A stretch of DNA of 64,000 bases from Plumapathes pennacea (taxonomy: Eukaryota > Cnidaria > Anthozoa > Antipatharia > Myriopathidae), in the NCBI GenBank assembly GCA_964036295.1, contig OZ038466.1, forward strand, positions 21,938,597 to 22,002,596, in the 5' to 3' direction. Shown here one piece after another: positions 23,700 through 61,534 of the stretch; position 1 is the first letter of the stretch; every line of letters starts with the position of its first letter. A model generated the notes under the pieces. That model was not told the origin of the DNA and searched no databases. It worked only from the letters and a program-made list of their open reading frames with translations. The translations under genes and the position numbers were made by a program.

Positions 23700-25820
23700 G
23701 CTCAATGGAACACTAGTTTTTGGAGGAGTGCAACTGACTGAACGCAGCCTCAGAATGTTGCAACTTTGCTGTAATTGCGTTGTGTGAACTGAGTTTTGCT
23801 TCGTAAACAAACACGTTTAGAGGTCAGTCGCAGACGGGTAACATTTTACCCTTTGCAATTCTTTAGCAACTTGTCACTGAGTTGCTGAAAAAATTGCAGT
23901 GTAAAAATTCAGTGAAATTGATCAAAATTATCATACTTTAGTTTGCTATTCACCTGTTGTATGCCTATCCCTCATTAGGAAGTGGCGAAAAGTAAACACT
24001 CACTGAGACAGTTTCGAAATTTGTTTTACCTATCCAGAGCCTCCTCTGAATAAAGCGCATGAAACATTGTCACAGGACTGAACAATTGTGGTTTTTGGGA
24101 ACCCAGAGCCGAGAAGACAGCTTCTTCAAAGTTTTGCAGCAAATTTACACCACATTGTCGGCGCAATTAAATATACAAATTAAATACGTACCCGAGAGCG
24201 TGCTTTGAACAAACCAAACCTGTGCTATTGGTGATAGCTGTAAAATCGTCGGTTGACGTGTTGATCTTTCGGAAAACGATCAGTTTGCTCCCAGAGCTCC
24301 TTCGACATAAAGTGATGTTTAGATTACATTCAATTAGACAGTTGCACTATTTCTATGAGAAGAGGGCGTCAGTGCACACAATATAGCGGTTTTAGAATCA
24401 CTGCCAAACGTCATCGTCTGGTTGCCCTGGTTTTTCTGTCCTGTTCGATTGGTCCAAACAAATTTCTCGGCCAATCAGAAACAAAGCAAGCCAAAAGGTT
24501 CGTGACGCCGACAGCGTTTACTCGCGCTGCTGATTGGTTCGGCTTCTTTAAACTAAATCCAACATTGTGAATAGAAAAATGAGTGACGGCTATACTTTTG
24601 TGATTGGTTGAAAGTGTTTCCTAAAAGTGTTGTGATTGACACTGCAATTGTTTCGATTTTGGTTTTCGACAGCCATGCGAAAACCGTTCTAAAACTGTTC
24701 CTACTATGTCCCGCGACTTCGGACATACACTAATCATGTGATGGAAACAACAACGAGAAAAAAAAGAATATTGATACACAAGCATAAGCTTCCAGAATAG
24801 AGGCCATGTCAACACCAATTGAATAGTTTTTTTGATTAATGTTAAAAATACGCATTAGTGTGACCACGCAGCCTGAGGTAAACCGCTTATCAAAAAGCCT
24901 GCCGTATTTCCAATAATCTGCACTGTCGCTTCCTGTCTGGGAACTCATTAGCTCTGTATTGTTTTCACTGATCATGGCCTTGGTATAATCTGACACGATA
25001 AATTTTAATTAGAAGTAATGTCATTTTAAATTCAAAACACGAGAGAAAGTTTGTTACGAACAGGCAACAGTGTATTTGGTAAAAGCCTTCTGTACTACTG
25101 CACTTGCCCTTTCGTTAATAAAATCGCCAACTTATTTTGTCTTTTTTGTACAATATGACTCATTCAAGTGTCAAGCGCACAAACGATCAACATTTGAAAG
25201 CAAACGTGAATAAGAATACGTTTAATTGTATATAAATTTGAAGTTATATTAACAAATGTCGAAGAATAAAAAGCAAACTCTCAGCGAGGTGCTTTTCAAT
25301 ATATCTTAACTACATATTAACGTTTTCCTTAGATGTCAAAAGCAAATCAAAACGCATCGCGTTCGGTGTCAAACTCAAAAAGCGTCTTTACATTACGTAT
25401 TCCACCGATAATACGGCTATCGCCTATTTTATGCTTTCCGAGATGTCCGTTGCGTCAAAACGAGGCCAGTGTAAAACGTGATCGGCCGGCTGCAGGTGTT
25501 GTGACTTTTAATACTTATGTACAGGCGTAGTTGGCACTGAGGGGGTTATGTAATAACCCAACTCGACCTTAGAGGTCGCCAAAATTATGAACAAGAGAAT
25601 ATTAGATGCAATTAGGTGGCGCCATACTGCGACCCTCCGTGACTGAACTTTGGATTTAATATGGAATACGGTTATGAGTATACAGCAAACTTTATTCACA
25701 GAACAATACACAAAAATATGGGATTGAAGAAAGTACACACTATAAAATACATCAAAGTCAAACCGTTGAAGAATCATGCAGTAAAAAGGCAATTTTGATT
25801 TTAGGACAGGAACAACGAAT
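23700..25820. repeat. Segmentally duplicated block, copy A
   Basis: Nearly collinear, same-orientation match to 28,115-29,720. It includes the long string around ATTGATCAAAATTA, GCATGAAACATAG/TGTCACAGG, AGAAGAGGGCGTCAGTGCACAC, and further on ACTCGACCTTAGAGGTCG and GAAGAATCATGCAGTAAAAAGG. No coding exon is recognised; a 71-codon frame at 24,355-24,570 is shared by both copies but has no domain. The left part is the 5' flank of the neuropeptide-type GPCR; the right part is the 3' flank of the truncated LRR-GPCR copy. Confidence 0.85.
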
Positions 25821-25957
25821 GCACACGAACTAGGAAAAGTGAACTTGAACGTGCTGTTTTACCTTTTCGGCAACGACCGCTGACTCCAAGAAAGAAGGTG
25901 ACCGCGGGGTCGTAAAAGTACTTCCGCGAGGCCGCAACAATCTAATGTAATCCCCCC

Positions 25958-27105
25958 CTAGCGCAGTTCTAAGCATTCAGCTTCCGTGTGGAAGTAGCCT
26001 GTCATAGATACCCCCTCATTGCCGGCGCCCCTTTTGCGGCAAACCATTCTCTTTAGCTCACTAGTGAACTGGGCATTCCACAGGGCAAACAGTATAGGGT
26101 TGAGAAAGGCGTTAAACACCATGCACATCGGGGGGAGCCAAATGCGAACGAGGGCGTCTGCTATGGGTTTGGTAGAAACATTTAACATTCCCGCGGAAAA
26201 CGCCACGATCATGATATTGGGAATAACAAAGAAAACCGAGTTGGTGAGCACGATCAGACCGATTCTCTTAGCCAGGCGCGTTTCCCCTTTTACACCCGCG
26301 CCAGTCGAAGCGCGCTTAACAAAGACGCAGATGTGAATGTAAAGCGCGAATATGATCAAATACAGCAGCACCAAGAATACAATCAACCCCTGGGTGTACA
26401 AAATCCTGTTGGCGGTTTCGAAACTTTGGATCAGAATGCACATGAAGTTATCTCGGATGATGGCGTTGTCGAAGTAATCTATGACAAAGCACATCACACC
26501 GACCAGAACCCAGAAAACCCCCAGTAATGCAGCGGCTATTTTTCGGCTGATCTTAACGGACGGGTTTGAGAAATGGACGATCGCGAGGTGCCTTTCTAAG
26601 GTCAGAAGCAGCGACGTAATGACACCCATAGTCTGACCCACCACGAAGACAGTCCTGTAGTATGGACAGTGGGACACCCGCCAGCTCCTGAAGGATGGAT
26701 CGTGGTTAATAGCGTGACCCGTGGCTACCGAGATGGAGTAAACACCGAGCAACAGATCACAGAAAGCCAAGTGAGCGATCAACATGAACGATGTATTGCT
26801 TTTCAGAAGTTTGCTAAACAAAGTCCCCATAATGACTAGGAGGTTCAGGAAGATGACTAAGGCTCCGAGTGTGATCTCAGAAGCGCGGAGGTCCCGCACT
26901 TGGGCCCAGCACATGTCTTTGTAAATCTTCCTGACCGGATCAACGTCTGTCAAACTCAACTCGCATTCCTTTTTTGTACACTGCCTTTTGAACAGAATGA
27001 ACTTCGCCTGGTGTTCGTCAACAAATGACAAGTGTTCATCGGGAATGTGACTGGCATTTACGACGAGGCAGGAGTTTATCTCTGCTGACGTTGGTGCGGG
27101 AGAAA
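25958..27105 (-). pseudogene. 5'-truncated, frameshifted copy of the LRR-GPCR
   Basis: A 357-codon frame (25,958-27,031) covers the whole 7TM part and is about 95 percent identical in protein to the gene at 33,799. The relation breaks upstream. At the position matching the CQYIP codons of the intact gene (about 27,050) one extra base shifts the frame into a stop. Similarity ends at about 27,105, so all leucine-rich-repeat exons and the signal peptide are absent. An ATG (MSFVDEHQAKF...) could still start an LRR-less receptor, so a residual or new function is possible. The ERH motif and NPILF are intact. Called a pseudogene with caution, because the 7TM frame itself has no stop. Confidence 0.7.
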
Positions 27106-28114
27106 TAGCTCATATAACGTATATAATGTACACGATGATTCTATGTGACAAGGTACGCCGAAGAATTCACTAGTAATGCATCATACTAACTGCATATTAA
27201 TGAACACCGGTTTGGGCTGATTAGCATGTTTCTCCGACAAAACTTCAGCAATGGGATCACGCGACGTCACCTATTGTTATTAGTGTAACAACCAAAGATC
27301 TATTGGCTGCTAAAACAAAGAGTTCTTTTCTTACAGTTGGCAAAATTACAATAAAAAAAATAATAATGGTAAAAAGTGATTAACGCTATACCTAACAACA
27401 CAGCTGAAATGGACAAAAATTCTTGTCAAATCAAACGAAACTGTTGATTTAATGTCAGCTCCACTACTTTTCTGAGAACAATAAAACTATTCAGGAGACA
27501 CCGCGACGTCGAAGGTCAATCGTAAAGACGTGATCCAAACCCCGACAGGCAAACAACGGTTTCTAATATCCATGGTGATAAAAACGCTGATGTATCAACA
27601 GAAAATTGATATGGGCACTGTCTAGTACTGTTAAAAGCTGGTATTACACTGTTCATTATTCTAAGTTTGGCAACATTTGTAAACCGATATTGAAACCTAC
27701 TTTACATGGCCTTTTAACACAAAGACGTTGAACAGTTGCTCTGCATTGCTGTGCTACCGTTTTGTCGCGCGCACCAGTTAAACAAATAATTGGGCTCACC
27801 GGGTAAAACGATGATTTTCTCTATCATGCAGATGCTGGGAACTGAGTTCAACAACTTGCTTGGAAAGTCTTTCTTTCAACTGTCTTTCCTTGTAGACCTC
27901 TTTTGGAGACAAAATTTGAAAGATATCCGGCTGTCTTGAATAAAACGCCTCCCAAGAAAAATATAGCCTGCATCTATTAAAATATTGTCAGAACGTTATA
28001 CATATTTTATCCCCAGCCTAAACAAACTCCCAATTTTATTGGCTGATTAAATATCCAATTCTAAAGTCCTGATTCTTTTGTGTTTAGTTTCATCAACGGC
28101 TGCTGACTTTGAAC
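27106..28114. other. Intergenic region, no gene recognised
   Basis: About 1 kb between the truncation point of the LRR-GPCR copy and duplicated block A'. It is AT-rich and without recognisable exons. In the intact locus this position would carry the hinge and LRR exons; none is present here. Confidence 0.6.
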
Positions 28115-29720
28115 GACCGCTGACTGAACGCAGGCTCAGCAGCTTGCAGCTTTGCTTAAATTCCGTCTTGTGAACTGAGTTTTGCTTCGTAAAAAAATAC
28201 GTTTCGAGGTCAGTCGCAGACGGGTAACATTTTAACCTTTGCAATTCTTTAGTAACTTGTCACTGAGTTGCTGAGAAAATTGCAGTGTAAAAATTCAGTG
28301 AAATTGATCAAAATTAGCATACTTTAGTTTGCTATTCACCTGTTGTATGCCTATCCCTCATTAGGAAGTGGCGAAAAGTAAACACTCACTGAGACAGTTT
28401 CGAAATTTGTTTTACCTATCCAGAGCCTCCTCTGAATAAAGCGCATGAAACATAGTCACAGGACTGAACAATTGTGGTTTTTGGGAACCCCAGAGCCGAG
28501 AAGACAGCTTCTTCAAAGTTTTGCAGCAAATTTACACCACATTGTCGGCGCAATTAAATATACAAACTAAATACGTACCCGCAGAGTGTGCTTTGAACAA
28601 ACCAAACCTGTGCTATTGGTGATAGCTGTAAAATCGTCGGTTGAAGTGTTGATCTTTCGGAAAACGATCAGTTTGTTCCCAGAGCTCCTTCGACATAAAG
28701 TGATGTTTAGATTACATTCAATTAGACAGTTGCACTATTTCTATGAGAAGAGGGCGTCAGTGCACACGATATAGCGGCTTTAGAATCACTGCCAAACGTC
28801 ATCGTCTGGTTGCCCTGGTTTTTCTGTCCTGTTCGATTGGTCCAAACAATTTTCTCGGCCAATCAGGAACAAAGCAAGACAAAAGGTTCGTGGCGCTGAC
28901 AGCGTTTACTCGCGCTCCTGCTTGGTTCGGCTTCTTTAAACTAAATCCAACATTGTGAATAGAAAAATGAGTGACGGCTATACTTTTGTGATTGGTTGAA
29001 AGTGTTTCCTAAAAGTGTTGTGATTGACACTGCAATTGTTTCGATTTTGGTTTTCGACAGTCATGCGAAAACTAAAACTGTCTAAAACTGTTCCTAATAT
29101 ACCCCGCGATTTCGGATATAGACTTATCATGATGGAAACAGAAAAAAAAAAAAAAAAAAAAATTGATATACAAGAATAAGCTCCCAGAATAAAGGCCACA
29201 TCCACACCAATTGTACCTTTTCGATTAATTTTGAAAATACGCATTAGTGTGACCACGCAGCCTGAAAATGACGTATTCCACCAATGGTACGCGGCTGTCG
29301 CCTATTTTATGCTTTCCGAGATGCACATTGCCTCCGTTTCAAAACGAGGCCAGTTGTGAAACGCGCGGTCGGCCGGCTGTTGGTCTTGTGATGTTTTATG
29401 CGCGGGCGTAGTAAGTACTGAGGGAGATATGGAACAGCCCAACTCGACCTTGGAGGTCGTCAAAATTATAAATACGAGAAGATTATTGTGAACAGTTCTA
29501 CAATTAGATGGCGCCATACTGCGACCTCCCCGTGACTAAACTTTGGATTTAATATGAACACGACTATAAGTACACTGAACTTTATTTACAGAACGCTAAA
29601 CAAAAATAAAGGGCTAAAGCAAGTACACTACAAAATTACATTAATATTCAAACAGTCCTCGGTCAAAGTCAAGCAGTTGAAGAATCATGCAGTAAAAAGG
29701 TAGTTTTCCTTCTAGGAACT
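28115..29720. repeat. Segmentally duplicated block, copy A'
   Basis: Second copy of block A, in the same orientation, with scattered substitutions and small indels. One segment present in copy A (about 25,000-25,370) is missing here, so the join falls near 29,265. The right end matches the 3' flank of the LRR-GPCR copy, but no LRR-GPCR exon follows; unrelated DNA and a cGAS-like gene follow instead. Confidence 0.85.
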
Positions 29721-30035: not shown

Positions 30036-32840
30036 TCAATCCAGTGGAATGTCGTCTGGTTTTATATTCATTGTAGGACAAGCTGGATCCACAAAAGTCA
30101 AAACTGCCATCACCAGGTCAGGTAGCCAGCCGGCGGGAAAAAACTGGCCGAAGATGAAGCCACGATTTGGATCTACAAGTCTTTGAATTATGGCCTGCGT
30201 ATCCTCAGGATCGAAGTCTTCCTCCAAAAGAATGTTGATCATATTTATGATCGTCTTCAGAAAGCCTAGAATGCGCTGCCTAGTATCCTTGCCCGGCGCT
30301 GAGATAGCAAAAGACGCGTAGACATCTGCAGTCTGACATTGTTTAAACACGTCTAGAAGGTCTTCCACCGTTACGTCGGGGTCTTCCCCAGACCAAGCAC
30401 GCACACCTTTCACCAACTCACTAAGAAGTGGATCGTCGGTTCTTACATCCGCGCCGCTTAGCGCCAGCGTAGCGATCTCTCTGACGGTATCCATGAAAAG
30501 ATCTTGAAAGTCGTGGTAACTCACGTAACTCCTACTATCCCTCCTCTCAAAAGGCAGGGGAGGGATAGTAGGAGAAACAAAATCGGTGTTCCCCGAAGCT
30601 TCAGATTGGGCTGTGGCAACAGCAGGGCTGGTGACCTCTGACGAAACTGGTCGGGCAGCCTCAGCAACAGTGGGATCTTCCTGGTTATCTGGTGGGATCA
30701 TTTGAGCAAAGGCATCCGGACGAATCCCTCCTTGGTCACCATCAGCTGTTTCAGCGCCAGGCTCAGATCTATCCAGGACCATCTCCCACTTAAAGCAGGT
30801 TGGATCCTGACAAATATCGTTCACCTTCGCAGCCAGTGACTCCAGAAGATCAGGGTGCTCACTTGCCGCGTGCTCGAACAGGTTACACGAGCGGATGAAG
30901 TAGTGAGGCAAAACCTTTCTAGACAACGCGTCCTGTAACTTGTCCAGTAGCGTTAGGACACAGCAGGCTCGATTATCTTCGCTCCAGACTTCCAGAGCTG
31001 AATCTTCAGCTGACCAGAGAAGCAAAGTCTTCAGATGGTAGGAGACCAACACTTTTTCATCAGTGCAAAGAAAGGCGCGGTGGAACAGCTTCAAACAGCG
31101 ATAGCACTCTTTCTGTACGGCGTTCATCTCCTTGCTCAGTAGATATTCTGCATTCGAGAACGATAAACGAAAATCGAGGTCGGGGTTTCCACCAGTCTTT
31201 GGGGTTTTTACTACGACGTGGAAGCTTTCACGGGTGATTTTCTCGACGACGTCATGTGAGGGCCATTGGCGCGGGCGCGTGCACCATTCTTGGGCAACCT
31301 CTGGCCATCCTCGACCTTGAAACGCAGGCACAAAATCAAATCCCAAGAATGCGGCTTCTGTGTTACTGCTATAACGCTCGTCCTTCGCGTCTGTTGAGGT
31401 AAGCTGTTTCTCTGCCGGTTTGCTTGCGAGACCGTCCGCGCTCAGCCTGGATGACTTGTCGCTGTTTCCAATTTTAGTGCCGCTTTCTTTGTTATTGCTG
31501 TAACCTTGCTCCTGTTGATTCAGTGGTTTTGGCTCCGATTCGGGTTGTGAAGGATTGGCAGTTTCTCTTCTTTCATTTCCGGCGTCCTCTGTCGACCTCT
31601 TGCCTTGGAAAGCGGGCACTGAGTCAGCTCTTCCGAGTGGTTCACGCACTGCGGTTTCTGTGCGTAACCTCTTATCCCTCTTCACGTCTGCGTCTGTGAC
31701 ATTTAACGCATGGTTGAGAGCACCCGGAAACAACGACATAACTAAGTCAACATTTTTCCACATTTCTATCACCGTGGTGCTTGGAAACTGATCCTCCGCG
31801 CTCAGATGGGTTGACTTGTTATTGTGCCTCTCTTCCAACAGTTCTCGAAATTCCTGAGACCTCAACAGAGTCTCTATCTCTTCTTCAAGGTCTTTTCCAA
31901 GCCCACTTCTGATGTTGTCGGTTTCGTTTTCGGAAACAGCGAGACTGGCCTGCAGCTCCTGATACAGTTCGTGCATTCTAATTCCACATACTTCCCTTGG
32001 CATTTCATCAATTAGTCGACTTACCAGATACGTGCTGGCCACACTTTTGAATCTGCGAAAAAAATTTGTCGCATACGACCGGAGATCCCCAGACACACGG
32101 ATCTGTTCCTTGACAAAATCTAAACTGCTTTTTAGAACGACACTTCTTTGTTTTATGTAGGGTACTTCGAGCTTTTCAGAAATCGAGGCTATGAAGGCTT
32201 CGACCAGTTCAAACGCTGCAGAGCTGTTCTGGTACTTGTTTTGGTACACGAAATTCCCCTTTTTCTTGGTGAGGGAACCAATTGACTGATTCATATCTAC
32301 TGTTATGGCAGGACCTTCGGGGCTATTTGTAATCTTCTGGATAGTGATTGAGTTTTGAATCGGTGATAACCCTAAAATGAATTTTTTTACCAGGTCAATA
32401 GAAGTCGACACTTCCCCGAATATCTCTGGGTGTAGGTTCTTCAGCGTCGCTGTGGCCACGAAGTAAGAGCCCTCGAACAAGCAGTTGTTCAACACTGGAT
32501 GGTTTACTCCGCGAATCCGGACAAATCCTGGTTTTCCCGCAATGTTTTCCAGCATGTCTTCGGTGACCTCCATTTGTTTGGCTTCGGAAAAAACCATCAA
32601 GTCGACATCACCGATATCGTGAGGCAGATAGCATTTCAGTCCCTCGGCCGAACTTCCGTACTGTGTGAAAGTGACCTGTTTTTCTGTAGATTTGAGCAGG
32701 TAGACAGACCAGATTTCGATTAGCTTGGCAAACGTAAGGTAGCCGTTTAAGTACTCGTCCCACTTCTTGCTCTCATCGCTGACTTCCGCCATACGTTTAA
32801 AAAACGCGTTTAGATCATGCTTATCGGACTTCGCTGCCAT
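30036..32840 (-). CDS. cGAS-like receptor / Mab-21 domain protein A, intronless
   Basis: An uninterrupted 934-residue frame. Nucleotidyltransferase motifs: YGSSAEGLKCYLP (GS at 62-63, EG at 66-67) and the metal-binding pair GDVDLMVF (D78, D80). The third acidic residue is D502 in FDFVPAFQGRGWPEVA, the start of a canonical Mab-21 C-lobe (about 500-690: QWPSHDVVEKI, DFRLSFSNAE, VSYHLKTLLLW, PHYFIRSCNLFEH). cGLRs use these acidic residues to make cyclic dinucleotides that activate STING; that this one does is inference. The spacing from D80 to D502 is about 420 residues, against about 90 in human cGAS; the insert is partly helical and partly Ser/Glu/Lys-rich and disordered-looking. No cGAS-type zinc ribbon is seen. 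A further C-terminal region (about 774-934) is shared only with the paralog at 38,029. The start is the first ATG of the frame; the paralog starts at the matching place. Confidence 0.9.
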   Translation of the reverse strand: MAAKSDKHDLNAFFKRMAEVSDESKKWDEYLNGYLTFAKLIEIWSVYLLKSTEKQVTFTQYGSSAEGLKCYLPHDIGDVDLMVFSEAKQMEVTEDMLENIAGKPGFVRIRGVNHPVLNNCLFEGSYFVATATLKNLHPEIFGEVSTSIDLVKKFILGLSPIQNSITIQKITNSPEGPAITVDMNQSIGSLTKKKGNFVYQNKYQNSSAAFELVEAFIASISEKLEVPYIKQRSVVLKSSLDFVKEQIRVSGDLRSYATNFFRRFKSVASTYLVSRLIDEMPREVCGIRMHELYQELQASLAVSENETDNIRSGLGKDLEEEIETLLRSQEFRELLEERHNNKSTHLSAEDQFPSTTVIEMWKNVDLVMSLFPGALNHALNVTDADVKRDKRLRTETAVREPLGRADSVPAFQGKRSTEDAGNERRETANPSQPESEPKPLNQQEQGYSNNKESGTKIGNSDKSSRLSADGLASKPAEKQLTSTDAKDERYSSNTEAAFLGFDFVPAFQGRGWPEVAQEWCTRPRQWPSHDVVEKITRESFHVVVKTPKTGGNPDLDFRLSFSNAEYLLSKEMNAVQKECYRCLKLFHRAFLCTDEKVLVSYHLKTLLLWSAEDSALEVWSEDNRACCVLTLLDKLQDALSRKVLPHYFIRSCNLFEHAASEHPDLLESLAAKVNDICQDPTCFKWEMVLDRSEPGAETADGDQGGIRPDAFAQMIPPDNQEDPTVAEAARPVSSEVTSPAVATAQSEASGNTDFVSPTIPPLPFERRDSRSYVSYHDFQDLFMDTVREIATLALSGADVRTDDPLLSELVKGVRAWSGEDPDVTVEDLLDVFKQCQTADVYASFAISAPGKDTRQRILGFLKTIINMINILLEEDFDPEDTQAIIQRLVDPNRGFIFGQFFPAGWLPDLVMAVLTFVDPACPTMNIKPDDIPLD

Positions 32841-33090: not shown

Positions 33091-33798
33091 CGATAAAAGT
33101 TGAAATTTGCACCTAAGCGACCAATCAGAACCAATCACAGAACAGCAGAGATAAACATTGTCGAGATGTTGTTGACAAGCGGAGTTGTGGGTTGGGAAAA
33201 GAATACTGAGTGGTGTTACCAGAGTATTTGCATGCAAGTTACATGATTCTGGTTGTTTGTTGACTTCATGGAAACAGAAAAGGCATCAACTGACCAAAAC
33301 ATATACAGACAGAAACATAAAGAATTAGTGTATGTGGAAGTGGATACGCAGTGGAATTAGACCACCCCTCCCTCCCTCTGGTTGCTCAAAATGATAACAA
33401 ACCCTCCACGAGTCTCTATTGTCCTTTGGCCTCTGCAAATACACGATTTCCTTCCAGGTCAGATTAGTCAAAATCAGAAGATAGAGGAACATATTTATTG
33501 ATTGTTTGGTTCAATAAACTGCTTTACTTCGTATTTTGATGTGTATAAATGACGAGTAAAGCACCTAAATATAATCCCTCTAAAAACGTTTAAGCATATC
33601 ATGAAGGCATATCCTTTCCCACCATGCTGCGGCAAAAATAAACGACACTTTACGAGCGTTGCGCACACGAACTACGAAAACTGAACTTGAATTTGCTGTT
33701 TTACCTTTCGGGCAATAACCGCTAACTCCAAGAAATATGGTGATCGTGGGGTCGTAAAAGTATTTCCGCGAGGCCGCAACAATCTAACGTAATCCCCT

Positions 33799-36493
33799 CT
33801 AGCGCAGTTCTAAGCATTCAGGTTCTGTGTGGAAGTAGCCTGTCATAGATACCCCCTGATCGCCGCCACTTTTGCGGCAAACCATTCTCTTTAGCTCACT
33901 AGTGAACTGGGTATTCCACAAGGCAAACAGTATAGGGTTGAGAAAGGCGTTAAACACCATGCACATCGGGGGGAGCCAAATACGAACGAGGGCGTCCGCT
34001 ATGGGTTTGGTTGAAACATTTAACATTCCCGCGGAAAACGCCACGATCATAACATTGGGAATAACAAAGAAAACCGAGTTGGTGAGCACGATCAGACCGA
34101 TTCTCTTAGCCAGGCGCGTTTCCCCTTTTGCACCCGCGCCAGCCGAAGCGCGCTTAACAAAGACGCAGATGTGAATGTAAAGCGCGAATATTATCAAATA
34201 CAGTAGCACCAAGAACACAATCAAGCCCTGGGTGTACAAAATCCTGTTGGCGGTTTCGAAATTTTGGATCAGAATGCACATGAAGTTATCTCGGATGATG
34301 GAGTTGTCGAAGTAATCTATGACAAAGCACATCACACCGACCAGAACCCAGAAAACCCCCAGTAATGCAGCGGCTATTTTACGGCTGATCTTAACGGACG
34401 GGTTTGAGAAATGGACGATCGCGAGGTGCCTTTCTAAGGTCAGAAGCAGCGACGTAATGACACCCATAGTCTGACCCACCACGAAGACAGTCCTGTAGTA
34501 TGGACAGTGGGACACTCGCCAGCTCCTGAAGGATGGATCGTGGTTAATAGCGTGACCCGTGGCCACCGAGATGGAGTAGATACCGAGCAACAGATCACAG
34601 AAAGCCAAGTGAGCGATCAACATGAACGACGTCTTGCTTCTCAGAAGTTTGCTAAACAAAGTCCCCATAATGACTAAGAGATTCAGGAAGATGACTAAGG
34701 CTCCGAGTGTGATCTCAGAAGCGCGGAGGTCCCGTACTTGGGCCCAGCACATGTCTTTGTAAATCTTTCTGACCGGATCAATGTCAGTCAAACTCAGCTC
34801 GCATTTCTTTTTTATACACTGCCCTCTGAACAGGATGAACTTCGCCTGGTGTTCGTCAACAAATGACAAGTGCTCATCGGGAATGTACTGGCATTTACGA
34901 CGAGGCAGGAGTTTATCTCTGCTGACGTTGGTGCGGGAGAAATAGCAGTTGCTGCACTCTTTAGAAATGGACCCACCTTTGATGACTCGTAGAGTTGTAT
35001 CAGCGAGAAGTGTTTCTGATAAAGTTAAGTCGGGATTTCCCTCTACATTCAAGTAGCTCAGTTGAGGAAGGGGCTCGGTCAGAATGCCGGTCCATTGCAT
35101 CAGAGAGTTGTATGCGAGACTCCTATTTATAGAAAAACATAACAACAGTAACTATACAATATAACAAACGAAAAGGATGCACTTCTCGCTCACAGCTAGA
35201 CTATAATTCATAAACAAACTCCAATCCTCCACTAAGCTTTACCTTAGTCCGATAACTGCAGTAACCTTTTTTAGTTTTTTAGCCGGACTTTTTCCCGGGC
35301 TATCCTGCGAGCGTTACCTTTACAATCATTCGACGTTTTCAGTTTGTTAAAATTCTTCCAACCACCCATGAAGACGCAGTATGGACGACACAAGAATATT
35401 ATAATCACATTAACTGCTTATAGTAAATCCGATCAATTCTCTATACCGTAACCCATGCACCTGTTCAGAGGATTGAAGGGGAAAATGAACTTTCACAGAA
35501 CACGGACTTACAGGTATCGAAGAGAAACTAATCCTTCAAATACTTTGCTTGTTAAGGTGACCAGCCGATTGTGGTCAAGAGACCTGCAAGGAAAAGCATG
35601 CAATAAGTTTGATTGCTGGATCTAATGGGGAAAATGTTACAAATACGTAAGGTCGATACATTGACATATCCCTTTTTTCCTTAACAGAGAAATAATGGCA
35701 CAGACATCGCTGTTTCTGTAGAATATCTACGTACAGTTCTGTGAGGTTACCAAGGCCGTGGAACGCTCCTTCTTCGATAACGCTTATGTTGTTGTAGTCT
35801 AGATACCTGTAAATCGAGAATCATTGTGCGTTGTGAGCATTCGAAGAACACTTATCTTCTTGTCTCTGCCAGTGTATTTTTTGTTTCTTTTCACACACAC
35901 AATGTGTATTGCACACATAAATGGAAAAAAGCTGAATCACAGCGCAAGCTCTTTCAATAACAATCAGGCGAAGCAAAGTGAAGCAAACAATCATTCACTA
36001 AAAATGACATTCAAACAAACAAGCAAACAAACAAGATACAAATGAAGGTCGAATCGAAACTGGGCTTCTCAGGTCCACTTACAAGTTTCTTAGCTGCGTG
36101 AAGTTCATCAAGGCAGTTTTCTGTGTCACCGCTATGATTCCATTTTTGGACAGGTTTCTACAAGAAAAAAAAAAAAAAAAAAGTCCTAAGCGATAATTGC
36201 ACCGCATATGAGAGCCTGGAACAGTTTGAAAGAAACCACCTCGACTGATTCACATTGGAAGTGTTAGATCACCATGGATAAAGAACTTACAAAGAGCAAA
36301 TCTCTCCAGCGTTCTTGATCAAGTTGACTTGACTGATGTTACTGAAGGTGCATGTCAAAGAAACGTTGTCAGGAAATTCAACTTGAGCATCACAGTCGGA
36401 GCAGGAGCACTCAGTCGGACACAATTCGCAGGAGCTCAGATAGAACGTCAACAAAAGGGCCAACGCCTGGACACACCCCAATGCAAGAGCCAT
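33799..36493 (-). CDS. Leucine-rich-repeat GPCR (LGR-like, short LRR type)
   Basis: Five exons join in phase into 581 residues: 36291-36493, 36083-36157, 35735-35806, 35512-35583 and 33799-35122. Exon 1 encodes a signal peptide and a Cys-rich LRR N-cap (CELCPTECSCSDC). Each of exons 2-4 encodes one LRR of 24-25 residues (LxxNxI/L pattern; for example YLDYNNISVIEEGAF), all with phase-2 boundaries. The large last exon carries another LRR, a Cys-containing hinge (SKECSNCYF, RKCQYIP) and the whole 7TM with ERH after TM3 and NPILF in TM7, as in glycoprotein-hormone/relaxin-type receptors. I chose the ATG at 36,493 because it places the hydrophobic signal near the N-terminus; another ATG 13 codons upstream (36,532) is possible. 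The ligand is unknown. It sits between the two cGAS-like genes, all on the same strand. Confidence 0.9.
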
Positions 36494-38028: not shown

Positions 38029-40467
38029 TCAGTCCAGTGGGATGTCGCCTGGTGCGAGATCCATCCCAGTCGTCGTAGGTTCCATAAAATTCAGAATTCC
38101 CCTCACCAGATCAACACCACATCCAGCAGGGATCACCTGGCTGAGATCAAAACCACCACTCGGATCAAAAAGTCTTTGAACAATGGCCTCTTCATTTCCA
38201 GGGGATAGAAGATCCTGGTCTGAGCAAAACTTGAACATCTTCATCCATCCCTTCAGCTCTCTGAGGATGCGCTGCATAATATCCGCGTCCGATGCCCCCT
38301 GGAATGCCGCGTAGGCCATGGTGGACGTGCTCTTGAACATGCGCACGAAGTTTTCCACCGTCAGTTCAGGGTGTTTCTCGTACATTGCTCGCATGTCGCT
38401 CTCCAACTCACCTAGGATCGGATCGTCGGTGGGCACTTCAGCACCGCTCAGCGCCAGGTCAGCGATTTCTCCGGCGGTATCCACGTACAGATCTTGAAAG
38501 TCGTGGTAACTCAAGTGGCACTCCGAAGACAGGGGAGGGTGAGCGGCAGAAGCGAGATCCGTGTGTAACCCCGAAGCGGCAGATTGGGCTGTGGAAACAG
38601 CGGGGCTGGTGATCTCTGACGAAACGGGTCGGGCAGCAGAAGCATTAGCAGCAGTAGAGGGGTCTTGCTGCTTATCTGGTGGGACCGATTGCGCAACAAC
38701 TGCAGAAGCACCTAAACGGACCCCTCCTTGGACATCATCAGCTGTTTTAACGCTAGGCTCAGATTTCTCCAGGACCATTTCCCACTTAAAGCAGGTTGGA
38801 TCCTGACAAATACTTTCCACTTTCGCAACCAGCGACTCCAGAAGATCAGGGTGCTCACTTGCGGCGTGCTCGAACAGGTTACACGAACGGATGAAGTAGT
38901 GAGGCAAAACCTTACTTGATAAGGCGTTCTGCAACTTGTCCAATAACATCAGGACACAGGAGGCACGGTTTTCCTCACTCCAGAATTCCAGGCCTGTTTC
39001 TTCAGCTGTCCAGAGAAGCAAATTCTTCAGATGGTAAGAGATCAACAATTTTTCATCAGTGCGGAAAAAGGCGCGATGGAATAGCTTCAAACAGCGGTAG
39101 CACTCTTTCTGTACGGCGTTCATCTCTTGGCTCAGGAGGTATTCCGCATGCGAGAATGACAAACGGAAATCGAGGTCGGGATTTCCACCAGTCTTTGGGG
39201 TTTTTACTACGACGTGGAAGCTTTCACGGGTGATTTTCTCGACGACGTCATGTGAGGGCCATTGGCGCTGGCGCGTGCACCATTCTTGGGCAACCTCTGG
39301 CCATCCTCGACCTTGAAACGCAGGCACAAAGTCAACTCCCCCAATTCGGTCATAGGTTGCGGCTTCTGCGCTATAACAGCTGCTCTCGTCCTTCACGTCT
39401 GTTTCTGAAACGTTGAACAAATGTGCGAGATAGGGGCTGTCTAGCAAAGCCGTTTCAATTCCGGTTTGGGAAGCTCCGCTTTCTGCACTTTGGGTTTTGG
39501 CGGCTTCGCTTTCTGCACTTCCGGTTCCGGTGCTCTTGATTTGGGTACTTCCGGTTTCGGCGCTTTCATTTCCTACGCTTCCGGTTTCGCTTTGAGGGAC
39601 AGCGAGTCTACTTTCTAACTGTTCCCGTAGCTGTACCAGTTCTTGCATCCTAGTTCCATACAAAACCTCGTTTACGAACCGAGGATACTCGGTCAGGAGC
39701 GACTGGCCATCCCCTGCAATACGTTGAATCTGTTCTTTACAATTCTCCAAGTAGGAGTTGAACAGGACAGCGTGCTCCCTGGTATAAGGCACTCCACGAC
39801 TCTCACACAGAAAAGCTGCGTAGGTCTCGAGCGCCGCAGGGCTGTTGTGGTAACAGCCCTCATCTCTGAAACTTTCGTCTTGTTTGATCAAGGAGTCAAA
39901 AGACTGAGCAAAGTTCATGGTTGCTGCAGGTCCGTCGGCGCTATTCGTGAACTGGGAAATACAGTTCGCTAGAATTGGGTTGTCTTTTCCTGTAATGGCT
40001 TCTTGGAGCTTTGCTGCGAGTTGAGCAAAATCCGACACTTTCCCAAATATTTCCGGATGCATCTTCTTCAGTGTCGCTGTGGTCACCAACTGCTCTTCGG
40101 AATCCTTGAATACAGATCTGTTCAATACTGGATGACCATTGCCATTGATTCGCACAAATCCTGGTTTGCCGTCGATGTTTTCCAGCATGTCTTCGGTGAT
40201 CCTCATTTCTTCGGTAGTGGGGAAGATAACCAAGTCGACATCGCCGATATCGTGAGGCAGATAGCACTTCAGTCCCTCGGCAGAGCTTCCGTATTGCCTC
40301 ACAGTGACTCCCTTTTCTGAAGTACTTTGAAGGTAAGCCAAAGCCTTCTGAATCCAAAATGCAACAATATTTCTGACATATTCTTCCCATTTCTTGCTTT
40401 CTTCGCTAACTTCCGCCATACCCTTGAAGAACTCGTTTAGGTTTTGGTTACTCGACTTTTCTGCCAT
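38029..40467 (-). CDS. cGAS-like receptor / Mab-21 domain protein B, intronless
   Basis: An uninterrupted 812-residue paralog of the protein at 30,036. GSSAEG lies at 60-65, DVD at 76-78, and the third acidic residue is D379 (GVDFVPAFQGRGWPEVA). The insertion between them (about 300 residues) includes a low-complexity Ser/Glu/Thr/Gly segment at about 292-335 (SAETGS, TGSAES, QSAESG). The Mab-21 C-lobe (about 378-568) is almost identical to that of paralog A, while the N-lobe is clearly diverged. The C-terminal region (about 655-812) again starts with SYHDFQDL and ends DIPLD. All three catalytic carboxylates are kept, so activity is plausible; cyclic dinucleotide synthesis and the activating ligand are unproven. 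Its start aligns with paralog A (MA-KS...LN-FFK-MAEVS). Confidence 0.9.
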   Translation of the reverse strand: MAEKSSNQNLNEFFKGMAEVSEESKKWEEYVRNIVAFWIQKALAYLQSTSEKGVTVRQYGSSAEGLKCYLPHDIGDVDLVIFPTTEEMRITEDMLENIDGKPGFVRINGNGHPVLNRSVFKDSEEQLVTTATLKKMHPEIFGKVSDFAQLAAKLQEAITGKDNPILANCISQFTNSADGPAATMNFAQSFDSLIKQDESFRDEGCYHNSPAALETYAAFLCESRGVPYTREHAVLFNSYLENCKEQIQRIAGDGQSLLTEYPRFVNEVLYGTRMQELVQLREQLESRLAVPQSETGSVGNESAETGSTQIKSTGTGSAESEAAKTQSAESGASQTGIETALLDSPYLAHLFNVSETDVKDESSCYSAEAATYDRIGGVDFVPAFQGRGWPEVAQEWCTRQRQWPSHDVVEKITRESFHVVVKTPKTGGNPDLDFRLSFSHAEYLLSQEMNAVQKECYRCLKLFHRAFFRTDEKLLISYHLKNLLLWTAEETGLEFWSEENRASCVLMLLDKLQNALSSKVLPHYFIRSCNLFEHAASEHPDLLESLVAKVESICQDPTCFKWEMVLEKSEPSVKTADDVQGGVRLGASAVVAQSVPPDKQQDPSTAANASAARPVSSEITSPAVSTAQSAASGLHTDLASAAHPPLSSECHLSYHDFQDLYVDTAGEIADLALSGAEVPTDDPILGELESDMRAMYEKHPELTVENFVRMFKSTSTMAYAAFQGASDADIMQRILRELKGWMKMFKFCSDQDLLSPGNEEAIVQRLFDPSGGFDLSQVIPAGCGVDLVRGILNFMEPTTTGMDLAPGDIPLD

Positions 40468-41059
40468 CTTTCTTTGTTTCGCCTAGTGGTTAGTCCAGAC
40501 CTTTTTTTGCTTCCGCTTTCTATTTATGTATTTTTAAATGTATTGTAAACCCCTCAGTTTCGGTTTGAAAAATGGGGAAATTGTACCAAACCGAGGTGCA
40601 TTAACAGGTTGATCAGAACCAATCACAGGACAGCAAAGCTTGACATTGGCTGACAGTTTTGATCATCACATAATTTAATATAATGCAAATTAAAAAAGCA
40701 ATGTTTTAATAAAAAACCGAGCTTGTAGGACCGGAAATATGTCACTCACGCTTCGCTTTGTCAAAATTATTTTTGCCGTCCGACTCTAATTCGCATGCCA
40801 CGCGAACGGTTTTATCTTTTTTTTTTTTTTTTTTGTCTGTTTGTCCGGGGAAAAGTCGAAGCACCATAATAAGCATGGCTATTCTTTGCAAGCTTTTCAA
40901 ACAACTAACAAATGAACAAATATTACACACTCCAGACATATTAGCATAAATTTGCAACACAAGATTCGGTGTTCTGATACATATTTACATTGCAATGCTC
41001 CAACTTTTTAATTGGGATAATGATATACTGTAACCAACAGAATAGACAATATATTGTTG

Positions 41060-41125
41060 GTAAAATATCAGACAGCAACAATCTGTTTATGTTGCTGTTA
41101 TCATCACAACTTTTGACTATTCCAT
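41060..41125 (-). promoter_or_regulatory. SECIS-like element in the MsrA 3' UTR
   Basis: On the minus strand, about 170 bases after the stop codon, the order is GTGATGAT (core ATGA at 41,101-41,104), a stem AACAGCAAC, an apical loop containing AAA, the returning stem GTTGCTGT and CTGAT. The non-Watson-Crick quartet partners (ATGA opposite CTGAT) and the unpaired AA 12 bases after the ATGA fit the eukaryotic SECIS consensus. Found by eye; a SECIS search program would test it. Confidence 0.8.
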
Positions 41126-41274: not shown

Positions 41275-42703
41275 TCACTCTTCTGAGGTTTTTGCAGACA
41301 TTTTGTTTAATAACTTGTGTATGTAGTCGTATGTTTGCTGACTAAGTCCATAGGAACTTATCTCTTGTTCTATGACATCCCTTCTTCCGAAGCCACCTGC
41401 AAGGCCATTTAGCCGTGTGGCAGCTTGTGATTCTTTTAGTTCTTCACTTGTGAAGTGTTTCAGGTCTCTAAAAAGCTGCCAGCTATTCTGCAGTCTGTAC
41501 TTTTGATGGTACCTGTGATTTATAAACCAATACACAATCTTTATTTAAGTTACCAACTGAGAATGTTGATCATTTCAAGAGTTATGATCTTTCAGTAATC
41601 ACTGGTGAGAGAATGAATTCAAAAGAGAAGATTGATTGTTATCAGGAGTAACAGGACTGGTTAAAGTATTGGTTATGAACATCAGCATATTACATGTACA
41701 TCGTATGTTGAGTTACAGATTAAAGTGTTTGGGAAGTTGCAAGAGCACTTAATTTCCAAGGAGACCCTTAATTCCCACAGTGTCACCAATCAGATTAGAC
41801 ATACTGCACTATCTGAATGAATATTAAGTGACTTACCCCTCTGCATCAAAAAACTGGGATGCATCTTCTATAACTGTAAGCACCTTTCTACTAAACGTCC
41901 TTTGCTTCTCCTCCAATGAAGAGCGAGCCAGTCTACGTTGGTTTTCATCATGTACGAAAATAGCAGACCGATACTGCCGACTTTGAACCTCAGTAGGATC
42001 ATGTAATGACCAGAATATATGCAGTAGCTGTTCATATGTTGTCTGTGAAGGGTCATACTCAATTTGGATGCTTTCAGTATGGTCTCCCCTGTAGACGGCA
42101 GATAAAGTATGTTAATAAGGCTTTGAAAGACATTATTACTGTGCATGAGGTTTTGTGTGAATGTGTGAAAAAGAGACAGACAAACAGACAGATGGAGTGA
42201 CATTTAGGGATCCAGGAATTCTCTCCCCCACCCCTCCCCTTGCATCAAGCTGGCCTAAGGGACTGAAGGAGCAGAAGTTCAACAGTAATGGGGAGGGCCA
42301 GGCAGCAGTAGATCTCAGTGAGATTTCATGAAAAATTTGTGGACATTTGACCGTGACTTTTAGTTTAGTGTTAACAACAACAACAACAAGAACAGCGACA
42401 AAGCTTAACAACAACAGGTTGGCCGAGTGAGTTACTGTATAAATACAAAGATCCTCACATAGATCTGTAAGTTGGAGTTGCCGTTGTTCCCCCACTGTAA
42501 CCAACTCTGGTCCTCAGGACACCTCGCTCGGACCCAAAGCGAGCGTCCGGACCCCAAAATCATCCGGCGGCGAAAGTGGCAACTTCAACGACTTTCGCTT
42601 CACCAAAGAGTGGTCCTGAATCTTCAAAATTCGAAGAAAACTGATGAGAAACAGGGCTAAGACAGTAGAAGAACAGCGCGACGCACAATATCTTCGCCGC
42701 CAT
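41275..42703 (-). CDS. MSRA: Selenoprotein methionine sulfoxide reductase A (Sec48)
   Basis: Three exons join in phase into 244 residues: 42459-42703, 41837-42088 and 41275-41512. The catalytic motif, normally GCFWG, reads G-TGA-FWG: the in-frame TGA at 42,560-42,562 is codon 48. MsrA sequence continues after it (PDARFGSERGVLRTRVGYSG, PTYRSMGDHTESIQIEYDPS, LLHIFWSLHDPT, SRQYRSAIF, YHQKYRLQ), so it is a selenocysteine codon rather than an end. A SECIS-like hairpin lies in the 3' UTR. MsrA reduces methionine-S-sulfoxide in proteins; Sec at this site usually raises activity. The N-terminus (MAAKILCVALFFYCLSPVSHQ) looks like a signal peptide, so the enzyme may work in the secretory pathway. Ordinary gene callers would stop at codon 48 or miss exon 1. 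The final TGA at 41,275-41,277 is taken as the true stop. Confidence 0.9.
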
Positions 42704-53564: not shown

Positions 53565-56500
53565 ATGTTTCACAAGGCGTTTCGAGTAAAGTCAAACACC
53601 ACCATAAGAGGTTCTGACAGGTGAGGGTGCATAGGTTGTGATATTTTTTACTAATATTCGATCGACGAATTATTAGGTTTGAAGGTTTGAAAATTAATGG
53701 TTTGAAAGAAAACAGGGGTATCCTTTCAAGTATAAAAACATGTTTAACATTACATAGAGCCCATCATGTTCTTATGTACTTATGTAGGGTAATTTTTCGG
53801 ATTTCAAATGTGAAATTTGCCCCACTGAATAATTACCAGACTGGTAATTGAGTACCCCAGTCCAAAAAGAAAATCGAAACAATTTTATGCAAAGACTAGT
53901 ATGTTTTATTATATAAACATACTAGTCTATTATTTTAACAATTCTTTTTTCTTCTCTGAGAGAAGAAAGCATAAAAATCACCAAGAACACAAAATGATTT
54001 CATTATAAATCTTGATTTCTGTTGCAGGGTTTGAAATAATCTGACTCAGTATTGTCTGGGATAAAGTGGACCACCATTAATTTCAAACTCTGTTACTCTG
54101 TGCCCTGTAGATTCAGAATACAAAGACATGTAACAGCTGTGTTAGTCACTTACAATAGATACTGGAGTGGTTTTCGGATGACTGCAAACACCAAAACCAA
54201 AGTAATCACACCACCAATCAGCACAGCCAATCGGAAGCCAAAGTAATTCGTGTTTGGCCTTGCATTTGGTTTTACTTTCCAATCAGCAATGCAAGTACAC
54301 ACCATCGCTTGCGTGAGAAGTGTTTGGTTTTGGTTTTGGTTTTGATTTTGTTTCTGATTGGCTGAGCATCAGTGCTCGACATTAAGGTTTTAGGTCTGGT
54401 TGCCCTTCGGCCTGTAGATTGACTTCAAGCAATAGAAAGTTTCATAGTTTCTGATTGCCCGGCCCAGAATTTACCTGCCCGACCAAAAGTTTTGGTTGCC
54501 CCGGGCAAGTGGGCAACCATTAATGTCAAGCGCTGAGCATGCTGACAAAAACTCGTGTGGACCAATCCAAAAGCGTAGCAAACGCAAAACCAAAGGAATG
54601 ACATGATTACTTTTGACAGTCATCTGAAAACAGCCCTAAGAAGCAATCTATTACAACTAAAGAACTTTGAATAGCTAGTGAAGACCGATAATATATTGGC
54701 TGTGTGTAGGTCCACATGTAAAGTAAAGATCAGCTATCTTTATTCCTGTTTTCTGCATGTCATGCAGACGCAAGCTACGATCAGAAGTGGGTCGAGCATT
54801 CCCTTCTCTCTCCTCTGAAATGCTCTCAGAAATCATACCAAGTAAAGAGGAAATGACAGTGATGCGGATCATGAGTCATTCAGGTCAAAATGCTGTGGCA
54901 TACTGTCTGTCTGGGGAACCAGTGTTTTTTGAAGTTGAAGGAAAAATATTCCCAACAGGTATGGCCATAATCTCCTTCCCTTTTCCATCCCCTTAAAAAA
55001 TTATTAAATGAAATATCCCTGGGCACCCTTTTGCTGCCTTTTGTATTTATCTGTACCCAGCTGGGTCCAGATTCAAGAACTTGCGTACAGATCAAAATAT
55101 TCTGACTTGTATGAATTATGCCTCCAAGACAATGACTTGCGCGTACTATCTTGCACAAGATAGTATGCATATTGTAGTCATACATTCCTTTTGAACATTT
55201 TTGTTTGTACACAAGTCTTGTGAATATAGGCCCTGGTCATTAGCTAGCTAGTACAGGTGCCAAATCAATCAAATTTGTAAATTTGTGTCAAGTGTCAAGT
55301 GTTTTTTCCTTTACAGTTTATACCCTGTGGAGGTACCCCAATATCGTGCCTCAGTTTACAACATGGCCACCGGTGTTTGAGAAACTCAAGGGAGGAGCAG
55401 GTACTATTAAAGTGCACATAAGCCCAAAAATGATATCTTTACAATGATCGAATCTACATGACGGAAATATGTTGACTATTAGAATAAGTCTGCGTTTTAA
55501 TGCTGCGCCTTTGAGTTATCAAGGTTTATATTTTGAATATGGTAATGACGTGACATCTATGGAAGAGTCATAATGGAAGAGACTATTCCTTCCAGACATA
55601 TTTCGTAGGTGATGGACAAGGCATGTTGGCTGAAGCATCTGAACAACTAGAATGGATTAAGTGTCAACACCAGGGATGTTACACTGTACTATTTAGCAGC
55701 TACAGAAAATCCGAGTGGTGATATTTTTAAAAATAATTATTTGTTGTCCACAGATTTGATGTTGCCTGGAGTCATTTTACCACTGCAAGGTCTTGATGCT
55801 TATGGAAAGTTTGAGAAGGGCACAATTTGCTGTGTTACACTTAAGGGAAACAGGTAAGGTAGTTACCTGGTTAGGATAAAAAGTTATGCTTTCTTACTAT
55901 TACCGGATGTTTATTAATCATAAAATCTAGAAGAGATCATTAATAATGTCTAGCACAGACCAAACCTATAAACTGATGTTCCAAGCTTTAGCCCTTTGTC
56001 AGAGCAAAGTTTCCTACTTAACATTAGATGTTGCTGAAGTCCTTGCAACAAAAAAATGGCCTAACATTTAAAACAGAAACAGTTGTTAAAATGTTAACAA
56101 TAAGGTTGTAATAAAATTACTATTAATTAAATCAGAAAACTAAACATGAAGCTGCCTGACATAGTACAGGATAAATAATATAAAACTTATTTTGTAATAT
56201 ATTATTTTCTGTGATTTGTGTGCTTCAGAGCTGCTGTTGCTGTTGGTGAGACAGCTGTATCCTATAAGGATGTGCTTGAAGATGGCATGAGAGGCAAGGC
56301 AGTTCTCATCAACCATATGTACACAGATTTTTTGTGGTATGCCAGGGCTGCATTCAGTCTAGCCTGCATAGCTTGGCCCTCCGGGGGAAGGGGTGGGGGA
56401 TGAAGGTGGACTGGAATAAGCCTCACCCCCCTTCCCCCAGAGGGCCAAGCTATGCAGGCTACATTCAGTCTGATGATCAATTATCCAATTACTTGTTCTA

Positions 56501-59500
56501 AAAATGTTTCCTAACAATAGCCTCTCTTTAGCTATGTATTTCCACAATGAAATGCAGTGTGCAAGTGACTAAATCACGCTTAAGTGTCAAAGAGAAAAGA
56601 AGGGGGTGAGGGTGGGGGTTAACTGATGGAGACATGCAGAGTGAGAGCAAGAGATTTCAATGAAGGGTCAAAGAAAAAAGGATGTTGAGGAAAAGGGAAT
56701 CAAAAGATTCCTTGATTAAAAGCCACACAACACAGACATGGCAAGGACGTACAGTACTAACTTGTTTTGGTTGAGGGGGCATGGCTGAGTGATTACCATG
56801 TACAAATAAAGATACTTTACTTGTTTTTTACTTTTTTTTAATTATTGGTTGTCAGGGCACAAGGCAGTAAAGTTGTCATTCCACAAGTAAGCGAACCTGA
56901 GACAGACTTAGAATGTGAGGACAGCGAAACAGCAGAGGCCACTTCAGGGGCTCCTGTGGAAGTTTCACACACTGAAACAGATGAGGAAGGTACGAAACTT
57001 GTAAGGGAAATAAACCCTTCCACTTCTGAACTCACAAAACAGAGATGACATTCACAACGGCAGCGAATCTGCTGCTGGACCTCTTGCCATTGTTGTAAAT
57101 GCCATCTTTGATTTCAAACTTGACAACATTGGGCAAATGTTTCCAAGATTCGACCAAATGCGCGAGCTTGCGAATCTCATGACACTGCCCCTTTAAGTTC
57201 CACATAATTTTGTCCAGGATTGTAGACTATTGTTTTTTTTTTCTTTTTGTTCTCAAAGCTTCTCTTGGGTTTCAACCAGAAAGGGTCAGTGATGCTTTTG
57301 AGCAAGATTTTCCAAAACTTGAGATATCAGACAACAATCAAGACTGCTGTTCAACTGAGGGTGAGGCTGACATGGAGAGCTGTTCAAACCAAGAAGAAGC
57401 TGAACAGCAGGCTGTTTGTACCAAAGGTGAGAAGAAAGAAGACACATTATGTGAGGTTACAGACACTCCAGAGGACTGTGACACAGAGGAAGCTGACACA
57501 TCAGCATACTTAGGTGAGGCGTGAGTCTAACAACACTCTATAATGTATAGAATACAAAGTAATTCATCAGTGATCTGGGTTCACTTGTACAAACCTTATT
57601 ACGGTAGGCTAGATGCCTGTCAATACAGCAAAACCTTTTGTTATGAGTTTGATTTGCATGAAAATAAACATGTGAGTGAAACTAACTTTCATAAGAAAAG
57701 TTTTGCATCAGAAGCAGAGGTTACAAGCATATTAGAAATGGTCTATTAACGGCCTCTTCTATAAGTTAATTTAAGATTATTTCTAAGTCAGTAATTGAAG
57801 AGTTTGTGTTAACTTAAGAAAAATTAACCCTTGTTTTCCAGAGAGAAATTTTCCAGTACAGTTAATTCCCTCTAAGACGGACAGCCTCCGGACCAGCTCC
57901 AACTGTCCGTTTTAGAGAGGTGTCCATCTTGAAAAGAGTTCAGTCAAAGTAAATGACTAAAGAAATGGCAGAGATCGCTTTCACCAGGTGTCCGGTGTCC
58001 TTTAGGAGAGAACTGACTGTGTTCAGGCTTTGCATTAGACCTCTTATACAATGCTTTGAACAACTGGACTCTATGATCTCTGCTGTGCAAGTGTCTAACT
58101 GTGTTACCAGTGCTTGACATTAACAGTTGCCCGCTTACCCGGGGCAACCAAAACTTTTGGTCGGGCAAGTAAATTCAGGGCCGGGCAACCAGAAATGAGT
58201 TTTTATTGCTTGAAGTCAATCTACAGTCCGAAGGGCAACCAACCTAAAACCTTAATGTCGAGCACTGGTGTTTCAAGGGCGTTATGGAGTTGTTTCCTTG
58301 CCATCGTTTACAGTATGTTGTCTTCCCCTACAGAAAACATGGACGATCTTCTGGAGTTTTGCTTCTTTTGTGCTCTGTTGAGAACAAAGAAGATTACAGA
58401 TCCAATTTTGACCAGCACATTTTTTCGGAGTTATGTTCTGCCAAGCTGGTGAGATAAATTCATCTTTTTTCCTGCTCTTGTATTCCGTTGTTCTTCTGCT
58501 ATTTTATCTTCTTTTCCTCTGCTTCTAGTTTTTCTATATAGTCTCTCCCTTGCTCTCCATTTTTTTCTTTTCTATCCTTTTTCGCACTCTTCTCTTTCAA
58601 TAACAGCGATTGTAGTTTTCTTCCCTTCCTCTGCACTTGTTTCTGTACTGTTCTCCCTAGTTCTTTACCTTTCTTCAATCTTTACCTTGCTCCAGTCCAG
58701 AGGGGAAATCTGTGGATATCAAGAAATCATCATATAAGAAGGTAGTGTGCTTTGTTATTGCCCCATTTTGTGCTCTGTCCGACAATGTCTTCAGTTTTCA
58801 TTTGCTTGAATGGTTTACAAATGAGGACAACCTTACTGATCGTTTCAGGTCTCCAAGTTTCTGCAAGTAATGCAAGAAAGAGGGTTTATTAAATTAAAGG
58901 AAGTCTCTAAAGGAGTGGACAGTATCGAAGCTTTTTGCTTAGACCACCCTGAGTAAGTAGAAAAACAAAAACAAAAACAAAAAAAAACTAACAGCATAAA
59001 TACGGCACTTACAGGCAGACTGACTGACGGACGGACTGAAGTACCGAGCTACAGACTCACTGACGACTCATGTGGTTTTTTACGCAAGTATTCAAACTTG
59101 CACGGACTTGCGTTTCATTTGGCCACCCACTTGCACGGACTTGCATTGACTTGCATTGAATTTGAACATGTTTTTCACCTAAAACAGCGAAGAGCGCGTT
59201 AGCAGGTCTAAACGGAATATATCAAAGGTAAAAGCCTACTCATTAAGTTCCAGCTCAAGCGAGACATCTGACTCAGATTCTCGGATTCTGTCTCAGAGCC
59301 AAAACTTGCATGAGCTTGCAGCGACCTGTGTCTCGTTTGGCCACCCTTTTGCAAGTCAGTGCAAGGTTTACCGTCAAGTCGAACTTGCATTGACTTGCAC
59401 CGACTTGCATCTCGTTTGGCCAGTCAGAGCTTAACGCCAGCTAAAACGCCAGCTAAACCACTCTAGGGTGTTCAACTTATCCACATCGACTTTTAGTTGA

Positions 59501-61503: not shown

Positions 61504-61534
<31 letters not shown>

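Follow-up and report, generated by a model that had tools for sequence, protein, structure and literature searches.

A probable selenoprotein methionine sulfoxide reductase A gene in Plumapathes pennacea that groups with bacterial selenocysteine-containing relatives

The window, i.e., the whole stretch of 64,000 nucleotides of Plumapathes pennacea DNA analysed here, carries a single minus-strand gene for methionine sulfoxide reductase A (MsrA), whose three coding exons encode a product of 244 residues with one in-frame TGA as the sole internal stop (Table 1). Its start codon lies in a good context (AAAATGG), both introns are of the GT-AG type (ATCTAT/GTGAGG ... CTACAG/GGGAGA for intron 1, AGAGGG/GTAAGT ... 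TCACAG/GTACCA for intron 2), and the frame joins across the exons without a gap. Homology to MsrA is found on either side of the TGA at codon 48 and continues through exons 2 and 3. The TGA at the catalytic codon of this gene is a real observation, as is the continuation of MsrA homology into two further exons, both of which had been claimed in a preliminary description made from the letters alone. A tblastn search of the 64-kb window detected no second MsrA copy besides these three exons (next best match at E 0.53).

Table 1. Features of the MsrA gene and its 3' UTR, in positions of the window.
Feature	Position	Strand	Basis
Exon 1 (coding part)	42459..42703	-	Start codon, hydrophobic N-terminus, catalytic G-U-F-W-G; Pfam PMSR from residue 42
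TGA codon 48, very probably decoded as selenocysteine at the catalytic site of MsrA	42560..42562	-	Alignment with Clostridium oremlandii MsrA and bacterial TGA relatives
Exon 2, mid-part of the catalytic domain	41837..42088	-	Translation, Pfam, PDB matches
Exon 3 (coding part), GYHQKY motif and C-terminal helical domain (residues 188-230)	41275..41512	-	Translation, Pfam, PDB matches
TGA stop codon	41275..41277	-	End of the exon 3 frame
SECIS element in the 3' UTR	41056..41110	-	Rfam SECIS_1 23.7 bits (sub-threshold), fold z -2.66, pattern control
ATTAAA, possible poly(A) signal 3' of the SECIS	41007..41012	-	Sequence motif; putative function

The neighbouring genes are of animal type and include rhodopsin-family GPCRs, two nucleotidyltransferases of the Mab-21 type, and fragments that carry 7tm_2, GAIN, and Ig domains. 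The two nucleotidyltransferases are long open frames on the minus strand (30036-32840 and 38029-40482; 934 and 817 codons from stop to stop) that match Pfam Mab-21 and Mab-21_C and are 84% identical over 958 bases; judging from this similarity, the pair arose when a cGAS/Mab-21-like nucleotidyltransferase gene was duplicated in tandem. The frame at 38029-40482 shares its strand with the MsrA gene and starts roughly 0.5 kb downstream of that gene's ATTAAA. An exon of a rhodopsin-type GPCR is likewise present twice (25821-27109 and 33663-34946, minus strand; 95% identical over 1289 bases) at an offset of 7.8 kb, close to the 8.0 kb between the two nucleotidyltransferase frames, while a further pair at 23734-24876 and 28120-29265 (94% identical) has a different offset of 4.4 kb. 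Other repeats comprise an inverted pair of about 166 bp at 54370-54535 and 58108-58267 (90% identical; perhaps a mobile element) and hexanucleotide arrays of GATGGT (x127, 61533-62292) and CACCAT (x39, 117-348), in which several spurious long open reading frames fall. No tRNA genes were found in the 64-kb window.

The encoded protein matches the Pfam family PMSR over residues 42-176 (E 3.4e-43; 148 bits against a cut-off of 23.7), the NCBIfam model msrA TIGR00401 (132.4 bits against a cut-off of 108.1), and, over residues 188-230, the Pfam family MsrA_helical (E 1.8e-06; 28 bits against a cut-off of 23.7), which is entitled "Selenoprotein methionine sulfoxide reductase A, helical domain". This last model misses relatives because a prokaryotic locus that stands beside the MsrA of C. 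oremlandii (CoMsrA) in the tree described below, L008, has no match to it at E <=0.001; among the ten prokaryotic proteins tried, three reached this threshold (L001, L002, and L006), with the match of L001 lying under the curated cut-off. Among 30 matching PDB sequences, the top seven are those of CoMsrA or near-identical sequences (166.8 bits for the best), followed at a distance by 2j89 (103.7 bits), 1ff3 (99.2 bits), and 1fvg (86.5 bits). We take these three to be the MsrA of poplar, E. coli, and cattle, respectively, and 2l90, which is used below, to be a mammalian MsrA.

In a pair alignment of the window protein with CoMsrA (43% identity), codon 48 falls opposite the catalytic residue, in line with the catalytic position proposed in the preliminary description, and the two proteins have G-U48-FWG, Y79, E87, and Y121 in common. 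These tyrosine and glutamate positions presumably correspond to the active site of E. coli MsrA, in which we take the aspartate to be Asp129; the site of this aspartate falls in a loop that is absent from both the window protein and CoMsrA. The only cysteines of the window protein, C7 and C14, both lie within its hydrophobic N-terminus, i.e., in the presumed signal peptide, so the predicted mature protein would have no resolving cysteine.

In the 3' UTR, a hairpin with the features of a SECIS element is found on the correct strand and in the correct place and order between the stop codon and the ATTAAA motif. This hairpin is located 164 nt past the stop codon and, in the spliced mRNA, 755 nt past the selenocysteine (Sec) codon. 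Its core consists of ATGA, 12 bases, AAA, and TGAT, in agreement with the SECIS-like hairpin that had been noted from the sequence beforehand. Written as RNA, the core comprises AUGA, a 9-bp stem (ACAGCAACA/UGUUGCUGU) whose apical loop of 9 nt carries the AAA, and UGAU; free folding returns the 9-bp stem ACAGCAACA/TGTTGCTGT and a 9-nt apical loop containing AAA within a longer stem. A 101-nt stretch around it folds at -26.3 kcal/mol (z -2.66), and 2 of 200 shuffled sequences folded equally well.

The Rfam family SECIS_1 gives a full-length model match at 41110-41056 on the minus strand with 23.7 bits, which is below its gathering score of 35 and includes two pairs marked as non-standard. The E-value of 0.15 refers to 4227 families searched on both strands of a 2500-base stretch and therefore corresponds to about 3.5e-5 for SECIS_1 alone. 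In the Rfam scan of the window, all families stayed below their gathering scores, and the SECIS_1 match was absent among the 25 matches listed in the whole-window scan (E up to 10), which applied stricter filters. The other matches in the 2500-base stretch, to SNORA26, MESTIT1_2, and CrcZ, were far under their cut-offs and are taken as chance.

We additionally searched with a strict SECIS pattern (ATGA / AA / TGA with >=8 contiguous pairs), which matched once across both strands of the window, namely at the hairpin in the MsrA UTR. This pattern and a looser one were written after the hairpin had been seen and their figures are hence somewhat favourable: the strict pattern matched 21 times per 3 Mb of one strand simulated with local dinucleotide frequencies, i.e., a chance expectation of 0.0018 in the about 261 nt from the stop codon to ATTAAA, while the looser pattern gave 14 rows from 7 start points in the window (3 of the 7 in simple repeats) and 4.35 per 128 kb in 20 simulations. 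The SECIS hairpin in the MsrA UTR is more than chance.

For comparison with prokaryotic relatives, we scanned prokaryotic genomes and took the best 80 of 508 confirmed MsrA loci; 59 pattern matches for relatives on viral contigs yielded none that could be confirmed. Among these best 80 loci, the codon aligned to residue 48 encodes cysteine in 73 and is TGA in six (L001, L003, L006, L007, L008, and L019). A seventh TGA locus, L002, has a frame shifted by an indel, and its neighbouring frame reads ATFAMG-TGA-FWG. A maximum-likelihood tree of 84 rows, comprising 79 of the 80 loci, the window protein, and four PDB sequences, was built mainly on the catalytic domain. It assigns the window protein to a 13-row clade (support 98/93) together with CoMsrA, all six TGA rows in the tree, and five cysteine rows (L004, L005, L009, L011, and L060), while 2l90 and 1ff3 are grouped together outside this clade. 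Constraining the window protein to group with the mammalian row was rejected (p-AU 0.0096), and a constraint joining both with the E. coli enzyme was rejected too (p-AU 0.0355); the groups for this topology test were picked after the tree had been seen and included one mammalian sequence. The window branch is long (0.88) and the tree bootstrap had not fully settled, so that, together with the post hoc choice of groups and the single mammalian sequence, the tree evidence is good but not final. As a less expected result, the window MsrA resembles bacterial Sec-using forms more closely than it does the MsrA of mammals.

Beyond the catalytic domain, we also inspected the 11 prokaryotic members of this clade. 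Judged by eye and with start codons unassigned, 7 of the 11 N-termini are lipobox-like or hydrophobic (L001, L003, L005, L006, L007, L009, and L019), those of L008, L011, and L060 are not, and L004 is cut or starts short. Within 190 residues, nine of the 11 have no cysteine after the catalytic residue, and L007 and L019 have one each. In two members from Halanaerobium (L005 and L009), a cysteine-containing MsrA is fused to an MsrB-like domain, again as judged by eye.

With high confidence, we regard the locus as a functional animal selenoprotein MsrA gene whose internal TGA is very probably read as Sec at the catalytic site. The main alternative would be that a nonsense mutation struck a cysteine-type MsrA gene or pseudogene, or that TGC or TGT was turned into TGA by a base-call error. 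In its favour, a TGA codon is one base away from a cysteine codon, and five cysteine-coded prokaryotic rows belong to the clade of the window protein. However, the 244 codons and the splice sites carry no other lesion, six relatives within the same clade are themselves TGA-coded, and the SECIS-like hairpin in the UTR would have to be a coincidence for which only about 0.002 occurrences are expected, which together make this alternative very improbable. We consider it less probable still that alternative splicing avoids the TGA or that the codon terminates a short product. Several GT dinucleotides of exon 1 lie upstream of the TGA, including a donor-like TTG/GTGAAG at 42603, but with any intron that spans the TGA, the GUFWG motif would lose its catalytic residue, which the relatives retain.

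Sec insertion in eukaryotes depends on a SECIS element that recruits SBP2 and the Sec-specific elongation factor. Since the SECIS in the 3' UTR would recruit these factors, the ribosome would decode UGA codon 48 of the selenoprotein MsrA mRNA as Sec. Sec48 would then serve as the nucleophile that reduces methionine-S-sulfoxide. The likely mature enzyme, with Sec48 and no cysteine, would need an outside thiol, and by analogy to CoMsrA its oxidised Sec48 may be resolved by glutathione, glutaredoxin, or another thiol partner, while the C-terminal helical domain may keep the active site together as in a CoMsrA-like one-Sec enzyme. The N-terminus is hydrophobic, with its highest mean hydropathy over 11 residues (2.84) at residue 5, and this hydropathy predicts a signal peptide. 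It suggests, as a second less expected point, that the enzyme probably enters the secretory pathway and works there or outside the cell; no KDEL-like end is present at the C-terminus of the window protein. The secretory route of mammals is described in published work as containing MsrB3 and not MsrA.

The closest comparison is CoMsrA itself, with which the window protein has in common a catalytic Sec, a mature form predicted to be free of other cysteines, a short loop before QY, and a C-terminal helical domain. Unlike the bacterial gene, it has introns and a SECIS in the 3' UTR, while a SECIS of C. oremlandii MsrA would be of the bacterial type and lie inside the coding region. The window protein also differs in about 30 extra residues before the catalytic domain, which include the hydrophobic stretch (the CoMsrA match begins at query residue 39 and chain residue 7). 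CoMsrA, of which 4LWJ and 4W8C are structures (PMC4333827), has been described as an enzyme with one Sec and no cysteine that uses glutaredoxin and not thioredoxin as reductant, is 20-fold more active in its Sec form than in its cysteine form, and nearly loses activity without the helical domain (PMC4333827, PMC4479559). Mammalian MsrA belongs to the PMSR family together with the window protein, which would catalyse the same reaction, but the clade joining them was rejected as given above, and the bovine enzyme is reported to carry two resolving cysteines besides its catalytic one (PMC4479559).

Animal Sec-MsrA as such is already known from published descriptions of a sponge, a placozoan, a sea anemone, an annelid, amphioxus, and non-insect arthropods, and the window gene thus adds to a known kind. 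The preliminary description was right that Sec-MsrA had been reported in some invertebrates but understated its range, as it is called widespread in marine invertebrates and assigned to 5 of 6 invertebrate genomes, i.e., one in Amphimedon, one in Trichoplax, two in Nematostella, one in Branchiostoma, and two in Capitella (one being an incomplete gene without SECIS), with none in Lottia (PMC3473315). Additional cases are given for the centipede Strigamia, Daphnia, and Ixodes by a second study, which also lists amphioxus (PMC4244043). Compared by description only, the genes of Nematostella, Amphimedon, Trichoplax, Capitella, and Branchiostoma are likewise animal MsrA with TGA for Sec, and those of Chlamydomonas and other algae, where MSRA is among the most widely distributed selenoproteins, are likewise eukaryotic Sec-MsrA (PMC7539508). 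Our literature search found nothing on a signal peptide or helical domain of animal Sec-MsrA in the texts it covered, which is no proof that these features are unpublished.

Citing phylogenetic reconstruction, previous work has stated that Sec-MsrA was converted to a cysteine form independently in insects and vertebrates (PMC4244043). The rejection of a clade with mammalian MsrA questions this view for vertebrates and argues that, for the window gene at least, mammalian MsrA would not be its Sec-to-Cys descendant. Taken jointly, our results may reflect a separate, often exported lineage of one-Sec/one-Cys MsrA that this animal shares with prokaryotes and that would act in the ER or extracellularly, is not ancestral to the vertebrate cysteine MsrA, and was lost from vertebrates without any Sec-to-Cys conversion. 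We put this reading forward tentatively, with the balance of probability slightly against it.

The work adds a well-supported animal Sec-MsrA gene and assigns the MsrA lineage to which it belongs. If its proposed location holds, the enzyme would be an animal methionine-S-sulfoxide reductase of the secretory pathway. The tree renders the published account of a Sec-to-Cys conversion of vertebrate MsrA testable, and a separate lineage lost from vertebrates would, if true, contradict published statements on this conversion.
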